A stretch of DNA of 64,000 nt, from the NCBI GenBank assembly GCA_028874995.1, contig JAPPGM010000104.1, positions 1-64,000 of the forward strand, written 5' to 3'. The position numbers and the translations under genes are program-made. This document shows, piece by piece, positions 11,075 to 62,880 of the stretch. Below the pieces are notes generated by a model that ran no database searches, had not been told where the DNA came from, and saw only the letters and a list, made by a program, of their open reading frames with translations. This stretch comes from Gemmatimonadota bacterium. Its GTDB lineage: Bacteria > Gemmatimonadota > Gemmatimonadetes > Longimicrobiales > Gaopeijiaceae. Position 1 is the stretch's first letter. Each line of letters begins with the position of its first letter.

Positions 11075-11107
11075 GGTTGCGAAGATAACCGGATGGGGGC
11101 GGTCCCT

Positions 11108-11181
11108 AACAGCCCGAGTGCAAAGCCCCCGGCATTCGCCCGGCGATGCATCCGGCCTGGAGCTTCGCTCGGACTGCTGGC
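11108..11181 (-). repeat. REP-like palindromic element A, reverse copy
   Basis: Read on the minus strand this carries the family core GGATGCATCGCC...GCGAATGCCGGGGG, flanked by arms related to GGCAGTCC and GGGCTG. It fills most of the 129 nt between hisS and folC. This copy is in the opposite orientation to the others in the window. Confidence 0.6.
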
Positions 11182-20643: not shown

Positions 20644-21989
20644 TTTTCCTTCCCGTTCGTTTGATCGGGGCCGAGGCACAGCGCGTACAGGCGCTCGGGA
20701 TCGAGTGCCTCCCCGGCAACCCGCACAATATCGCACCCGGACACCGCGTCGATCATCCCCTGCACTTCGTCGAGGCCCGCGAAGGGCTCGCCGTGCAGGG
20801 CGAATCCCGCAAGTCTGTGAAGACGTGCGCCCGGCGCCTCTAGCGACAGCATCAGCTGACCCTTCACCTGCTCCTTGATGCGGGCCAGTTCGTCGGTCGG
20901 CAGACCCTCGGTGGCTACCCCGCGGCAGACCTCGCGCACGGCGTCGAGCGCGGCCGGCGCCCAGGCGGGACGGGTTCCGAGGTAGATGCCCAGGACCCCG
21001 GCCCGCGAAAAAAAAGACTGATACGCATACACCGAATAGGCGAGCGCGAGTTCTTCCCGCACGCGCTGGAAGAGTCTGGAACTCATCCCGCCGCCCAGCG
21101 CCGCCGACAGGAGGATCAGCGCGTAGCGGTCCTCGTGGGCGTGTCCCGGCGTATCGCGTCCCAGTACGATATGCACCTGGGCCGACTCCCGTGCGATCCG
21201 GTCCGTTCCCGGCCGAACCTCGCCCGGATCGGCCACCGCCGGGGCTTCGCACCCCGGCTCGACGTCGCCGAACCACTCCCCGGCGAGGTCCGCGAAGGCG
21301 TCGTGTTCGACGCATCCCGCCGCCGCCACCACCAGGTTGGCCCCCACGTAGGAGGTGCGATGCAGCGCCGCCAGGTCCTCGCGCGTGATCGCGCCCACCG
21401 TGTCCCGTGTTCCCAGAATCGAGTATCCGTACGGGTGGCCGCCCCACATCCGGTCGCCGTGCAACTCGAAGACCAGGTCGTCGGGCGCGTCCTCGACGGC
21501 CGCGATCTCCTCGCCCACCACCTCCTTCTCGCGCTCCAGATCGGACTCCGCGAGCAGCGGGTTGCGGATCAGATCCGAGAGTACCTCGGCCGCCTGTGGA
21601 AGATGGTCCGCCAGCACCCGCGCCTCATAGCCCGTGTGCTCGCGGGAAGTATAGGCGTTCAGCGATCCCCCCAGGCTCTCAAGCGCCAGGGCGATCTCCT
21701 GACGGGAGCGGTTTTCGGTGCCGCGAAAGACCATGTGCTCCAGCAGGTGGCTGGCCCCCATCATCCCGGCGGACTCCAGCGCTGATCCCTGCCGGACCCA
21801 CGCCCCCACCGCCACCGAACGCACCCCGCGCATGGCTTCGGTGAGGACGCGCACGCCGTTGCCGAGCCGGGTGGCGCGGTAGGCTTCTCCGCCTCTCGGC
21901 AGGCCTGTCCTCGCGGAGTCTGCCGGCGACCGATGCACCCCGGCAGTCCGCGGGCCGCTCCGCGCGAATGCCGGGGAGGTACTGGCCAC
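20634..21989 (-). CDS. M16-family zinc metallopeptidase
   Basis: 451 aa if the GTG at 21989 is used. Zinc motif HLLEH at 81-85 with the distal Glu in EEIAAVED about 75 residues on, as in processing-peptidase-like members. The second half is the inactive M16 partner domain. The first 30 residues are encoded inside repeat A and look non-family; an in-frame GTG at 21938 would remove part of them. A run of eight T on the coding strand (21007-21014) sits in YQSFFSRAG. It lies between pnp and ald-dut, and such peptidases follow pnp in other bacteria. Confidence 0.9.
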   Translation of the reverse strand: MASTSPAFARSGPRTAGVHRSPADSARTGLPRGGEAYRATRLGNGVRVLTEAMRGVRSVAVGAWVRQGSALESAGMMGASHLLEHMVFRGTENRSRQEIALALESLGGSLNAYTSREHTGYEARVLADHLPQAAEVLSDLIRNPLLAESDLEREKEVVGEEIAAVEDAPDDLVFELHGDRMWGGHPYGYSILGTRDTVGAITREDLAALHRTSYVGANLVVAAAGCVEHDAFADLAGEWFGDVEPGCEAPAVADPGEVRPGTDRIARESAQVHIVLGRDTPGHAHEDRYALILLSAALGGGMSSRLFQRVREELALAYSVYAYQSFFSRAGVLGIYLGTRPAWAPAALDAVREVCRGVATEGLPTDELARIKEQVKGQLMLSLEAPGARLHRLAGFALHGEPFAGLDEVQGMIDAVSGCDIVRVAGEALDPERLYALCLGPDQTNGKEKCL

Positions 21990-21997
21990 GGACTGCT
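21942..21997 (+). repeat. REP-like element A, shortened copy at the pnp end
   Basis: GGCAGTCCGCGGG at the left and GGCCACGGACTGCT at the right pair as an imperfect stem around CGCGCGAATGCCGGGG. The right end shares bases with the pnp stop codon, as at rpsI. The same DNA encodes the doubtful N-terminus of the M16 peptidase. Confidence 0.6.
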
Positions 21998-24733: not shown

Positions 24734-25858
24734 CTACCGGTCCAACCACACCCGCAGAACATCAAGGGTATTCGCGCCCAGCTCGGTGAATCCGTACCCC
24801 AGCACGGTTCTGTCTTCGAGAAGAAGAAGCAACTGGTCGTGCAGCTGTGACGCGACCAGGGTGCACGTCGACAGGTCGATCACATCGAGACGACCCTGGA
24901 AGATCCCGGTGATGTCCTCAAGGGCGGGCTCGATGAAGCCGTCGCCGGAGGGATCCGGGATGAGGGTTTCCAGCCAGTCGGATCGCCGAGCCGCGAGAGA
25001 CACCCAGAGCAGGCCATCCGAGTCGGTCCGTATCTGGCCGATGATATTGGGAGGCGGGTTGTCCGGCGAAGCGGGTTCCAGCAGAAAGTTCGCCGAGTTC
25101 AGCAGCGGCTCTCCACGAAGCCCGCCGAGCCGGGAACCCTCCTGAGACCACACTTCGACCACGTACTCGAACCTTCGCGCCGCGAACACGCTGCCGTCGG
25201 CGTCTGCTGCGAGGGTGAGTTCCACCGGCATGGACTCGGGTGAATCCGAATTCCGCTCGTCCCCGGCGCCGAACGACCTCAGGATCCCTGAATCATCGAT
25301 GATGTGCAGCGGCATGCCCACGCGCCCGGGCTCCTCGATCGAAGCGTGCACGACGTATCGCTCACCATCGCTCAGCGGCGCCTTCGCCGAAATCCAGGTC
25401 GGCAGCCGCTTCTCCTCGACCAGCGTGAACGCCTCGTCGATTACCGAAATCCTCAGGTTGTCCGTGTCGAAGACATGCACCCGTCCGGAACCATCGGTAT
25501 GCGTTGGCGCGGCGCTGCCGAACTCCATCGGGCCATCCCCTCTGCGACCAATCGCCCGCAGGAAGGTGCCCTCCGCATCAAAGACCTTGATCTGCTCGTC
25601 CTGGCCCACCCAATAGTTGCCCAGGCTGTCGCGAACGACGTTGTCCATGGTCCCTTCCGCGACCAGGAACCCGGGGCCCAGTTCGTCGCCCCCGAGGCGG
25701 GTGACGTGGGCGAAATCGAGGCAGTTCTCGCAGAGCGGCGTCTCCAGGTCCAGAACGCAGCCGTCTCCGAAGAAGGAACCCGGCTCGCGGGCCTCCTCTT
25801 CGGCGCATCCGGAAAGGGCCACCAGGAAAGTCGCCGTCAGTGCGAGTCTCTTCTTCAT
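24734..25858 (-). CDS. Beta-propeller lipoprotein, copy 1
   Basis: 374 aa. Begins MKKRLALTATFLVALSGC, a signal peptide ending in a lipobox, so it is exported and lipidated. The body shows repeated blade motifs such as GNYWVGQDEQIKVFDAEG and GRRGDGPMEF, typical of six-bladed NHL-like propellers. Cysteines sit near the N-terminus of the mature protein (GDGC, PLCENC). Very similar to the next gene, with the last 25 residues identical, so the two arose by tandem duplication. Function unknown; such proteins may bind a ligand or a partner at the envelope. The ATG has AGAGA before it; a longer in-frame ORF uses a TTG inside the palindromic region. Confidence 0.85.
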   Translation of the reverse strand: MKKRLALTATFLVALSGCAEEEAREPGSFFGDGCVLDLETPLCENCLDFAHVTRLGGDELGPGFLVAEGTMDNVVRDSLGNYWVGQDEQIKVFDAEGTFLRAIGRRGDGPMEFGSAAPTHTDGSGRVHVFDTDNLRISVIDEAFTLVEEKRLPTWISAKAPLSDGERYVVHASIEEPGRVGMPLHIIDDSGILRSFGAGDERNSDSPESMPVELTLAADADGSVFAARRFEYVVEVWSQEGSRLGGLRGEPLLNSANFLLEPASPDNPPPNIIGQIRTDSDGLLWVSLAARRSDWLETLIPDPSGDGFIEPALEDITGIFQGRLDVIDLSTCTLVASQLHDQLLLLLEDRTVLGYGFTELGANTLDVLRVWLDR

Positions 25859-25955
25859 TGATTCTCTTCGTCTTGGTTGGAGACTTGCGCCGGACTGGTG
25901 TGACCTTCGTTTACTCGCGGAAACCCGGATCGCCACCATCGGCAAACGAAGAAAA

Positions 25956-25993
25956 GTAAACTTCTGTTGACATTTTGACAATCACGGTTGTCA
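25956..25993 (-). promoter_or_regulatory. Inverted repeat in front of propeller copy 1
   Basis: TGACAA-N6-TTGTCA (25976-25993) beside GTAAACTTCTGTTGACA (25956-25972). The same block with one change is at 27292-27308 in front of copy 2. It lies about 100 nt upstream of the start, in a 148-nt gap, and is AT-rich compared with the surroundings. Probably the promoter/operator region duplicated with the gene. Confidence 0.5.
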
Positions 25994-26006: not shown

Positions 26007-27125
26007 CTACCGGTCCAGCCACACCCGCAGCACATCCAGGGTATTCGCGCCCAGCTCGGTGAACCCGTATCCCAGTACGGTCCTGTCGTCGAGAAGAACC
26101 AGCATCTGGTCGTGCAACCGTGACGCGACCAGGGTGCACGCTGCCAGGTCGATCACGTCGAGGCGGGGCTGGTACATCCTGGTGATGACATCGGGTGCGA
26201 CTTCGGAGGAGACGTCGCCCGACGGATCCCACATGATGTGCTGCAGCCAGTCGGGTCGCAGGATGAGGAGAGACACCCAAAGGAGACCGTCCGAGTCGGG
26301 GTGAATGTCGAAGATGCCACTGGGGGGCGGGTTGTCGGGCGATGGAGGCTCCTGCAGCGACGTCTCTGCGTTCAGCGCCGGCTCCCGGCGAAGCCTACCG
26401 ACGCGCGTACCCTCCTGAGACCACCCCTCGATCATATACTCGACGGGGTGCGCCGCGAACACGTGACCTTCCGGGCCGCCCGCAAGGCGCAGATCGATGG
26501 ATCCGAGCCAGGACTCGTCCGGCTCCTCCCCGGCGCCGAACGACTTCAGGACTCCCGAATCATCGATGATGTGAATAGGCATGCCTGTCCGTCCGCGCTC
26601 CCCGATCGATGCCTGGACGACATATCGTTCACCGTCGTTCAGCGGAGCGAACGCTGAGACCGACGGAGGAAGCCGCTTCTCTTCGGCCAGGGTGAACCCA
26701 CCGCCGATCACTGATATTCTGCGGTTTTCCGAGGTGTCGATTATGTGCACGCGTCCGAAGGCATCCGCATGCATTGGCTCGGCCCGGCGGAACTCCATTG
26801 GGCCATTCCCCCTGCGGCCAACCGTCCGCAGAAACGAGCCTTCGCGATCGAAGACCTTGATCTGCTCGACCTGGCCCACCCAGTAGTTCCCCAGGCTGTC
26901 CCGCACGACATTGTCCATGGTCCCGTCGTCAGTCAGAAACCCGGGGCCCAGTTCGTCGCTCCCGAGGCGAGTGACGTGTGCGAACTCGATGCAATCGTCG
27001 CAGAGCGGAGCCTCCGTTTCCAGGACGCAGCCGTCTCCGAAGAAGGAGCCCGGCTCGGGGGTCTCTTCGGCGCACCCGGAAAGGGCCACCAGGAGCGCTG
27101 TGCTCACTCCGAATCTTCCCCTCAT
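26007..27125 (-). CDS. Beta-propeller lipoprotein, copy 2
   Basis: 372 aa. Starts MRGRFGVSTALLVALSGC (lipobox LSGC) with GAGGGAAGAGGAA ahead of the ATG. Same layout as copy 1, including the cysteines (GDGC, PLCDDC), the blade motif GRRGNGPMEF and the identical end TVLGYGFTELGANTLDVL. Roughly two thirds of residues match copy 1 by eye. Upstream gene of the pair; each copy keeps its own promoter-like block, so they may be expressed separately. Confidence 0.85.
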   Translation of the reverse strand: MRGRFGVSTALLVALSGCAEETPEPGSFFGDGCVLETEAPLCDDCIEFAHVTRLGSDELGPGFLTDDGTMDNVVRDSLGNYWVGQVEQIKVFDREGSFLRTVGRRGNGPMEFRRAEPMHADAFGRVHIIDTSENRRISVIGGGFTLAEEKRLPPSVSAFAPLNDGERYVVQASIGERGRTGMPIHIIDDSGVLKSFGAGEEPDESWLGSIDLRLAGGPEGHVFAAHPVEYMIEGWSQEGTRVGRLRREPALNAETSLQEPPSPDNPPPSGIFDIHPDSDGLLWVSLLILRPDWLQHIMWDPSGDVSSEVAPDVITRMYQPRLDVIDLAACTLVASRLHDQMLVLLDDRTVLGYGFTELGANTLDVLRVWLDR

Positions 27126-27291
27126 GATTCCTCTTCCCTCTTGGTCTGTGTCGCCGCCGGACAAGGGCCATTGGTAGAACGTCACACGCCGGTCCCGACT
27201 CGACCATCGCACGATGACCCAGACTCCCTCTCGAGGAAACCCGGATCGCCACCACCGCCGTCGACAGCGCCAGCGCCATCGCCTCCGCATA

Positions 27292-36028: not shown

Positions 36029-36430
36029 GCAACGCATAGCGAAGCCCTCCAAAGATTGGATGTATACTATACGTTCCATAATGTATAGTATACTTTACAT
36101 TGTGCATCGGTGAAACGGAGCGGCCCAGCCCGAATGCATCGCCGCTCGAATGCCGGGCGGGTTTTGTCCGCGGGCTGCTGGCAGTCCGTGGATGAACCCG
36201 CCCGAGCACCGAGAGCGGTGAGGCGCCGGGCTGGCAAGGCGCGACGAGAGGGGAATAGCACCGCTATTCACCCGAGGAGCAACGCAGAGCAGAGCATTTC
36301 AAGAAATCTGGTGTATACTCTACATTCCATAATGTATAGTATACTTTACATTGTGCATCGGTGAAACGGAGCGGCCCAGCCCGGATGCATCGCCGCTCGA
36401 ATGCCGGGCGGGTTTTGTCCGCGGGCTGCT
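36029..36430 (+). repeat. Tandem CE elements nested in REP-like palindrome A
   Basis: A truncated CE (36029-36132) with A right arm (to 36179), then a complete copy: A left arm (36180-36205), CE insert (36206-36383, 178 bp), A right part (36384-36430). The 106 bases from 36074 to 36179 recur at 36325-36430 with one or two changes, an offset of 251 bp. CE contains a hairpin with GAATAGC/GCTATTC and an AT-rich inverted repeat: GTATACTATAC-N10-GTATAGTATAC is perfect at 36062-36093 and has one mismatch at 36313-36344. This fills most of the 466-nt gap between murA and the DUF948-like gene; no gene seen. Confidence 0.85.
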
Positions 36431-36472
36431 AGCCCCATATTCCGGGCGCGAATCACGCTTGTCGGAGCCATC

Positions 36473-41975: not shown

Positions 41976-42044
41976 GGCAGTCCGTTCAAGAGCCTGCGCG
42001 GGTACATCGCCTCTCGAGGGCCGGGGGGACTCCGTCCACGCGCC
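41976..42044 (+). repeat. REP-like element A, degenerate copy
   Basis: GGCAGTCCG at the left, then ACATCGCCTCTCGAGGGCCGGGGGGACTCCGTCCACG, similar to the family core and right arm. Lies between the end of the lipoprotein gene at 42046 and the start of serS. Confidence 0.55.
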
Positions 42045-42045
42045 G

Positions 42046-42600
42046 TCAATCCGGCGGGACGAGGTCGCGGCTGTTGCAGATGCGGTTAACATCGAACTGG
42101 AACCGGACGGTCCCGACGATGCTGTCCGTCTCCAGGACTTCGATCTTGCCGTAGTAGTTGCACACGGAGAAGGTGCCCTGGTGCAGCCGCGTGCGGATGA
42201 CGTAGATCGGGTCGAAACTGATCGGGATCGGCGCATCGGTCACGTAGCGGGCGGTATCGGCGGGCGCCTCCTCGGCCGTCTCGAAGGTGTGCCCTTCGAG
42301 GGTCGCCAGACCGGCGTCCGAGCTGATCCCGAGGGCCCCGGGCGGCAGCCACACGAACTGCCCGTCCCGGTAGTCCACCGTAAGGTCCCACAGGTCGCCG
42401 GTGGTCGGAGCCTCCAGCCGCTTCGGGATGCGGCTGAAGAAATCGAAGGCCGAAAGCAGGTTGGTTTCGGGCCGGGACAGGACGTACAACTCAACCGTAT
42501 CCGGGTTCGCGACCCAGCTGAACGCGAACGGGTCGTCGCCGCACGCGGCAAGCAAGGTCCCGCTTGCGACGATCACCAGCACCAGATTGCGAATCTTCAT
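42046..42600 (-). CDS. Putative lipoprotein of unknown function
   Basis: 184 aa. Signal peptide MKIRNLVLVIVASGTLLAAC ending in a lipobox, so it is probably an envelope lipoprotein. The mature part is beta-rich with no domain I know and two Cys near the C-terminus (VCNYYG, RICNSRD). A stem GACCCG-N7-CGGGTC (42615-42633) lies just before the ATG, and TTGACC-18-TAGATT overlaps it as a possible promoter. Confidence 0.8.
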   Translation of the reverse strand: MKIRNLVLVIVASGTLLAACGDDPFAFSWVANPDTVELYVLSRPETNLLSAFDFFSRIPKRLEAPTTGDLWDLTVDYRDGQFVWLPPGALGISSDAGLATLEGHTFETAEEAPADTARYVTDAPIPISFDPIYVIRTRLHQGTFSVCNYYGKIEVLETDSIVGTVRFQFDVNRICNSRDLVPPD

Positions 42601-42680
42601 GGCTCAATCTATCCGACCCGGCTCATTCGGGTCAACTCACGTTATCGTTACTATTGTGGGCGGTTGAGCGTAGCTATGCG

Positions 42681-42731
42681 GCGCGCTTGCATCGCCGTCC
42701 GAATGCCGGGTGGAACCCCACCACGGGCGGG
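42681..42731 (+). repeat. REP-like element A, partial copy
   Basis: GCATCGCCGTCCGAATGCCGGGTGG followed by CCACGGGCGGGCC gives the core and part of the right arm; the left arm is missing. Lies in the 308-nt gap upstream of manC. Confidence 0.55.
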
Positions 42732-42795: not shown

Positions 42796-42867
42796 GGCAG
42801 TCCGTGGATAGATCCGCCCGGATGCCTCGCCGCCGGAATGCCGGGGGTGTTCTGTCCAGGGGCTGCC
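42796..42867 (+). repeat. REP-like element A, uninterrupted full copy
   Basis: 72 nt. Arms GGCAGTCCGTGGATAGATCC and the complement of GTTCTGTCCAGGGGCTGCC pair with a few mismatches around GATGCCTCGCCGCCGGAATG. This copy lacks the CE insert, so it shows the empty site: CCCG followed directly by GATGC. Confidence 0.7.
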
Positions 42868-49442: not shown

Positions 49443-49513
49443 CGCGGTCCGTGGACGGAGCCGTCCGGACACATGGCCGCTCGAAGGCCGGGGGGATTCC
49501 GTACACGGACTGC
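49443..49513 (+). repeat. REP-like element A, copy between cdsA and uppS
   Basis: GCGGTCCGTGGACGGAGCCG on the left and GGGGGATTCCGTACACGGAC on the right pair around ACATGGCCGCTCGAAGGCC. It sits at the 3' end of uppS, within a few bases of its stop. Confidence 0.6.
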
Positions 49514-53324: not shown

Positions 53325-53573
53325 GGCAGTCCGTGGATGGAGCCGCCCGAGCACCGAGAGCGGTGAGGCGCCGGGCTGGCAAGGCGCGACGAAGGGGGAA
53401 TAGCAGCGCTATTCGCCCGAGGAGCAACGCAGAGCGAAGCCTTGGAGTGACAAGATGTATAGTGAACATGACATAATGTAATGTGTACTTTACAGTTTTG
53501 ACAGGTGAAGTGAAGCGCCCAGCCCGGATGCATCGCCGCTCGAATGCCGGGGGGATTCCATCCACGGGCTGCT
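53325..53573 (+). repeat. CE element nested in palindrome A, between rpsI and rpsB
   Basis: Left arm GGCAGTCCGTGGATGGAGCC (from 53325), CE insert 53351-53525 (175 bp), then the A core and right arm to 53573. The GC half has GAATAGC/GCTATTC and GAGGAGCAACGCAGAGC; the AT half, about 53455-53505, is diverged from the copy near murA. The right end includes bases of the rpsI stop codon (53572-53574). Confidence 0.85.
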
Positions 53574-62649: not shown

Positions 62650-62880
62650 TGTCCCGGAGATATCTCGGCTATTCGAGCACCGATTCATCCGGGCTGGACC
62701 GCTTCGCTCATGTCACCAGTAATGTAATGAATATATTACAATATGTAATGTATAGTATACATTCTTGCTCATCTGAGCTCCGCTCTGCGTTGCTCCTCGG
62801 GCGAATAGCCCTGCTATTCCCCTCTCGTCGCGCCTTGCCAGCCCGGCGCCTCGGCACTCTCGGTAGCTCGCGAATCCCCG
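62650..62880 (-). repeat. CE element (reverse) between pntA2 and pntB
   Basis: Reading the minus strand: CCGAGAGTGCCGAGGCGCCG, the GAATAGC/GCTATTC hairpin, GAGGAGCAACGCAGAGC, the AT half, then CCAGCCCGGATGAATCGG and a degraded A right part. The AT half includes AATGTATA-G-TATACATT (17-bp palindrome). It fills the 258-nt gap in an operon whose genes are usually close; no gene seen in it. Confidence 0.8.

Follow-up and report, generated by a model that had tools for sequence, protein, structure and literature searches.

The repeats A and CE of a 64,000-nucleotide stretch of a Gemmatimonadota genome (contig JAPPGM010000104.1, positions 1 to 64,000; hereafter the window) are not two nested repeats but one non-autonomous element (MITE) of about 250 bp. 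We assign a probability of roughly 0.75 to the reading that an IS1182-like DDE transposase acts on this MITE in trans and moves it, that its short forms arose by deletions in place and its tandem copies by local duplication.

Structure and copies of the element in the window

Re-reading of the window sequence at 36029-36430 confirmed all sequence features on which the original prediction of a mobile CE element inside a palindrome A was built, i.e. CE between the two halves of A, the flanking CCCG and a recurring stretch. The recurrence, described as 106 bases with one or two changes, is real; here, 135 bp at 36048-36182 recur at 36299-36433 with 93% identity. The region is composed of a left-truncated copy (36029-36178, + strand; model positions 104-254; profile match, E = 2e-34) followed by a complete element. 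The right end of the truncated copy is intact, with CTGC at 36175-36178, and in genome G021 a lone half copy is found at its locus. Tandem junctions read CTGC-NN-GCAG, NN being CC, TT or, as here, TG (36179-36180). The adjoining complete long-form MITE measures 249 bp from terminal repeat to terminal repeat (36181-36429, + strand; profile match, E = 3e-72; 249-bp end pair). Its left terminal inverted repeat GCAGTCCGTGGATG (36181-36194, +) matches the ends of IS1182-like transposons and its right one, TGTCCGCGGGCTGC (36416-36429, +), is followed by TA, both being evident in the sequence and in the end-pair scan.

Between these ends, on the same strand, lie the two short repeats CCCG (36201-36204 and 36380-36383), core box 1 GGCAAGGCGCGACGA (36233-36247), a central hairpin (GGGGAATAGC / GCTATTCACCC; 36248-36275), core box 2 GGAGCAACGCAG (36276-36287) and an AT-rich block with approximate limits (36297-36366). 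The boxes were located by core pattern matches and covariance model, the hairpin by fold and covariance model. In the AT-rich block of this and other long copies TGTA/TACA words recur, which are kept genus-wide (ATGTATA, ACATGACATAATGTAA, CTTTACA); judged from these words, the block could be a protein-binding site.

A second long-form copy adjoins the stop codon of an rpsI-like gene (53326-53572, +; profile match, end pair), and a third has degraded ends (62666-62877, -; profile match; core model, E = 6e-14). The shorter forms comprise two 70-bp A forms (42797-42866, +, the empty A of the original prediction, identified by sequence and end pair; 49444-49513, +, by end pair), a diverged A form (41977-42046, +; profile match), a 54-bp deletion form (21943-21996, +; end pair) and two left-truncated remnants (42639-42728, +, and 11107-11175, -; profile matches). 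As had been noted before, no transposase for the element is present within the window. On the minus strand, two adjacent genes (24734-25981 and 26007-27290; 415 and 427 aa) are tandem paralogues whose DNA is 77-81% identical over long stretches.

Family size and size classes

The element is much more frequent than chance would allow. It has 50 BLAST matches in its own genome, where the core pattern, defined as GGCAAGGCGCGACGA-N(15-40)-GGAGCAACGCAG, is matched 25 times versus zero times for the reversed control pattern. A strict scan of a 544-kb sample (G021 pieces plus the window) yielded 19 end pairs versus one control pair; a looser scan allowing three mismatches produced noise and was discarded in favor of the strict version. 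The family is present in 23 of 23 genomes of the genus (Longimicrobiales-type Gemmatimonadota), with the ends GCAGTCCGTGGA...TCCACGGGCTGC bordered by TA on either side, and the alignment of 30 full copies gives the consensus TAGCAGTCCGTGGATAAAGCCGCCCGAGCACC...GGATGCATCGCCGCTCGAATGCCGGGGGGATTTTGTCCACGGGCTGCTA. At about 250 bp the many-copy MITE is too short to encode its own transposase. Its shortness, its many copies and the match of its ends to a transposon in the same genome support the predicted non-autonomous mobile element. In the draft genome G014 many contigs start 30-90 bases from a MITE end, where the repeat seems to break the assembly, so that copy numbers from this genome are lower bounds.

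The end pairs of the 544-kb sample mainly measure 34, 44, 54-56, 70, 142, 171-172 and 238-249 bp, versus the one control pair, and the core is confined to the 171-249 bp forms. A form of about 118 bp was seen at another locus.

A and CE as parts of one element

According to the predicted fold, CE pairs through its first ~30 bases with the right half of A. The palindrome is thus whole only when CE is present, and A alone is a broken palindrome. All eight core-bearing end pairs of the 544-kb sample possess both A ends, which is a weak test taken alone since pairs were located by their ends. Among the BLAST and core matches, the core was seen lacking A arms only in truncated copies or at contig ends. 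Thus, of the two arrangements in relatives that would set insert apart from target, CE without A arms was confined to such cases, and A without CE is frequent among the A-type pairs. Moreover, elements with the same ends, arms and core occur in another phylum (Vicinamibacterales), and core plus arms is therefore the older form.

If CE were an independent mobile element that had entered the REP-like palindrome A and duplicated 4 bp of target (CCCG), this would account for the exact junction between A and A plus CE and for CCCG at both sides. We nevertheless consider this very improbable, since the start of CE is the pairing partner of the right half of A, many other shortened forms have other junctions, the whole element is present in another phylum and no other target was seen to contain CE. 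Different short repeats form the junctions of the shortened forms. This is expected from deletion, whereas an insert in a fixed target should leave a single type of empty site. CCCG is the junction repeat of the 70-bp form and is best read as deletion microhomology, given the pairing of CE with A and the differing forms at orthologous sites; the empty A is then one among several internal-deletion forms rather than a target before insertion. The real nested and later insert is not CE but the AT-rich block of about 68 bp. Lying between GCGAAGC-type repeats, it is lacking in the 172-bp form as well as in members of other genera and phyla; its absence from other phyla is the reason for this assignment.

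Orthologous sites and tandem copies

The MurA locus is empty in G018, G003 and G014; it carries a half copy in G021, a remnant of 40 bp in G012 and a half plus a full copy in the window. The rpsI locus holds the ~250-bp form in the window, 172 bp in G021 and no element in G001 and G009. Hereby, the empty site of G001 (GCCTATCGC) and the filled site of G021 (GCCTAACAG...CTGCTATCGC) differ by the element plus TA; this gain of TA was seen at the single clean filled/empty MITE pair, the other sites being degraded. A third locus (L218) has three units in G021, a remnant and a full copy in G012, a half in G003 and short remnants in G000 and G018, and a fourth (L225a) has the long form in G021 and a mini form in G018. 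The direction of change at such sites, by deletion or by replacement, is not proven. Copies are also found flush with stop codons.

Half copies in the genus often begin just 3' of the central hairpin, and several Vicinamibacterales copies terminate within or near it; half copies would fit breakage at this hairpin. A consistent polarity of truncation with loss of left ends was considered and rejected: in Vicinamibacterales it is the right half that is missing from copies located by their left ends, and sampling together with selection near genes can explain the pattern.

The three tandem units in G021 are identical and those of C120 are 99.4% identical, while half and full copies agree to 96% in G012 and to 93% in the window. 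With 93-100% identity within tandems versus 83-91% between dispersed G021 copies, the local expansion proposed originally is supported; judged from these identities, the tandems appear to be local duplications and not repeated independent insertions.

The probable partner transposon

The original prediction had suggested looking for a transposase-bearing element with the same ends. Such an element was found in the form of an IS1182-like transposon of about 1.5 kb that has up to 19 of 19 terminal bases in common with the MITE. Matches to elements of this kind were obtained in 15 of the 23 genus genomes, some of them weaker and due to distant relatives or fragments, and none in the other eight; draft assemblies often lose such transposon copies. 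Copies with both ends close to TAGCAG(G/T/C)CCGTGGA are present in G001 (three), G015, G005 and G018. The ends common to MITE and transposon are short (12-19 bp), the full 19/19 agreement with the MITE consensus being reached by an end in G015. The three G001 copies (about 1512-1516 bp, 98% identical) lie at CTAG with TA on both sides. While the transposon appears intact in relatives, the copies of the own genome are broken (C55, C171). The transposase contains the domains DUF772 and DDE_Tnp_1; its best NCBIfam match, NF033551 (IS1182), scores 180.5 and 185.7 bits, which is below the curated cut-off of 270, and it is for this reason called IS1182-like. A Vicinamibacterales genome searched by ends contains a 1496-bp IS1182-like element with the ends TACCAGCCCGTGGCGAAAG and TAGCAGCCCGTGGAAGAAG; a MITE of that genome, with the end TAGCAGCCCGTGGCGAAAG, agrees with it at 18 of 19 bases. 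Judged from these shared ends, the IS1182-like transposon is the likely partner of the MITE. In a Vicinamibacterales sequence (L341; G401, contig 57), the IS1182-like element sits within another transposase-looking gene, which is ISAzo13-like by eye.

Two other transposase types were considered. The RAYT transposase (PF01797) is found in none of the 23 genus genomes, with positive controls, and the REP-like identity ascribed to A loses its basis with this lack of a Y1 transposase in 23 of 23 genomes. IS630 was rejected as partner in this genus: elements are present, but among 26 DDE_3 matches in seven genomes none has the MITE ends at its own boundaries, and some adjoin MITE ends. At four loci (L300, L303 and L305 in G001, L293 in G000), IS630 elements with the ends CTAGTGTWGTGTCCC abut MITE or IS1182-like ends; because both families use CTAG, each insertion of one creates new targets for the other.

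In Binatia, IS630 appears as a second carrier. On chromosome OY282432.1, core members of about 163 bp have ends such as CTAGTGTCCTGTCCCACAAA, and the end GTATCCTGTCCCACAAATAA of an IS630 element (L329:732-1924; NF033545, E = 1e-69) is identical to that of the MITE L330 at 20 of 20 bases. Two transposase families with a common CTAG/TA site thus contribute the ends around one and the same core. Within the own family, the MITE L083 (G031) has the ends TAGTGTAGTGTCGC, which resemble the IS630 ends TAGTGTAGTGTCCG in G021.

The core across phyla and its fold

Matches to the core pattern were obtained in Acidobacteria, Eisenbacteria, Binatia, Myxococcales, Deltaproteobacteria, an actinobacterium, Burkholderiales (betaproteobacteria) and gammaproteobacteria. 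Since many carriers are metagenome bins, contamination could explain individual cases; the set also includes a complete Binatia chromosome and the isolates Denitromonas, Pelomonas and Paucibacter. Hardly any Gemmatimonadota outside this genus show the exact pattern, which was matched in 24 of 395 genomes of the phylum, from two genera. Related elements with altered boxes occur in the same family and order, and here both boxes change together (GAC/GGA, TTT/AAA, CCT/AGG). The cross-phylum set was found via the exact boxes, and box conservation within it is partly by construction. Several betaproteobacterial members (L165, L174, L176, L180, L184, L195, L199, L212) show a second architecture around the same core, with arms of ~32 nt and, beyond the right arm, a further small hairpin (CTCACCC..GGGTGAG); neither ends nor a transposase were found for them. 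The core pattern had no match in viral contigs (IMG/VR) and only six partial matches of about 26-36 bp in plasmids. Rfam gave no match to the element above gathering score for the window and 16 cross-phylum loci, and no credible one at relaxed thresholds. A literature search with the core letters in open-licence papers returned none that by title appears to concern this repeat; it may have been described elsewhere before.

For 39 elements, the two arms of the same element align with a median score of 54, compared to 22 for arms of different elements, which equals that of shuffles, and RNAalifold reports compensatory changes in the inner arms. Across 22 arm clusters, G-T, G-G and G-A mismatches outnumber A-C, C-C and C-T mismatches on the + strand in 21 of 21 decided cases. 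This strand is also the more stable one in 12 of 15 cases with RNA parameters and in 14 of 15 with DNA parameters. The central hairpin, unlike the arms, shows no strand bias, its G-T and A-C mismatches being equal (85 versus 100). The bias of the arms points to a selected single-strand fold, of RNA or DNA alike; G-richness of unpaired positions could add to it.

Proposed mechanism and alternatives

We infer the following course. The IS1182-like transposase would recognize the ends GCAG(T/C/G)CCGTGGA next to TA and insert the element into CTAG-like sites at their TA, frequently in TAG stop codons, which would leave TA on both sides. Between its ends the element is one long imperfect palindrome with the conserved core (box 1, hairpin, box 2), the + strand folding best. 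Because it is a long palindrome, copies would break and become shorter at their sites through deletions between short repeats, yielding A, the other short forms and the halves cut near the central hairpin, and tandems would result from local duplication.

Among the alternatives, the least improbable, yet still unlikely, is stem-loop replacement, in which the IS1182-like transposase would swap palindromes so that mini, A, short and long forms interchange at fixed sites. Forms of different size do occupy the same sites across species, and IS1272, a member of the partner's family, is reported to target and replace stem-loops without target duplication (PMC5678879). The ragged, lineage-specific breakpoints at the L218, L225b and MurA loci, however, look like deletions, and TA was gained at the rpsI site. 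Slightly less probable still is a host function of the transcript, such as has been suggested for ERIC (mRNA 3'-end stability or termination), as the main reason for the element's retention, with mobility being secondary. The strand-biased fold, the conservation of the core across phyla, the maintained pairing of the arms and the copies flush against stop codons agree with such a function, but the balanced mismatches of the central hairpin, the lack of an Rfam match and the poor retention of copies at orthologous sites do not. Least credible of all is single-strand transposition of the REPIN/RAYT type by a Y1 (HUH) tyrosine transposase: the palindromic form, the many copies and the one strand favored for folding are set against the absence of PF01797 from the genus, the inverted ends with TA on both sides and the existence of a matching DDE transposon. 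Transposition in trans by the IS1182-like transposase, followed by deletion in place, remains our preferred reading. Points that speak against it are the TA gain at just one clean MITE pair, the shortness of the shared ends, the broken transposon copies of the own genome together with the eight genomes lacking a match, and the absence of target duplication reported for IS1272.

Significance and comparison with known systems

The usual view of a MITE is that it descends from a single transposon within a single lineage and is a dead end. In the present case, one structured core is shared by many phyla while the arms around it are unrelated, and its ends agree in two instances with those of different transposase families, which suggests that the core is kept by selection while changing its carrier. 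As a tentative proposal, somewhat short of probable, the core may unite structured MITEs throughout the bacteria into one superfamily, to which ERIC might belong. In such a superfamily, a folded core of ~55 nt would stay constant while arms and terminal repeats are exchanged; it would parasitize DDE families sharing the CTAG/TA target (IS1182-like, IS630) and act as a functional single-strand fold in RNA or ssDNA.

Transposons of the IS1182 family and IS5-like ones (DUF772 plus DDE_Tnp_1) resemble the MITE in ends (up to 19/19), CTAG/TA sites and the genomes in which they reside, but lack its core and arms. IS630-type MITEs (RUP and similar) have TA on both sides and prefer CTAG, whereas in this genus no IS630 element has the MITE's ends. 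According to a review on MITEs in bacteria, ERIC, Correia and RUP have TA ends (PMC2229807); a 2024 review mentions neither IS1182 nor IS630 nor phyla (PMC10969869).

ERIC (IRU/RU-1) shares the TA ends, the palindrome, the central hairpin, similar boxes in the same order and, according to the fold, the same more stable strand. It differs by its length of 127 bp, its short 7-bp end repeats and its box sequences. The boxes of E. coli ERIC score 38 compared to 23.4 ± 2.8 for shuffles, with 1 of 1500 shuffles as high. The covariance model gave no match, which is a weak test for ERIC, as the model was built from core-pattern matches and its boxes are nearly invariant by construction. The link to ERIC is thus a lead, suggestive but not proven; if ERIC belongs here, one could test where a repeat that has served for typing for decades came from.

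Correia/NEMIS elements likewise have TA ends and two size classes that differ by an internal block (PMC2229807), but are restricted to Neisseria; the likeness noted here is one of ends and size classes. REP/REPIN elements with RAYT are, like the forms described here, short palindromes in many intergenic copies. In contrast to them, the MITE has inverted ends with TA and no RAYT, and its short palindromes are remnants of a longer element; REP-like palindromes can thus arise as debris of a larger hairpin element.
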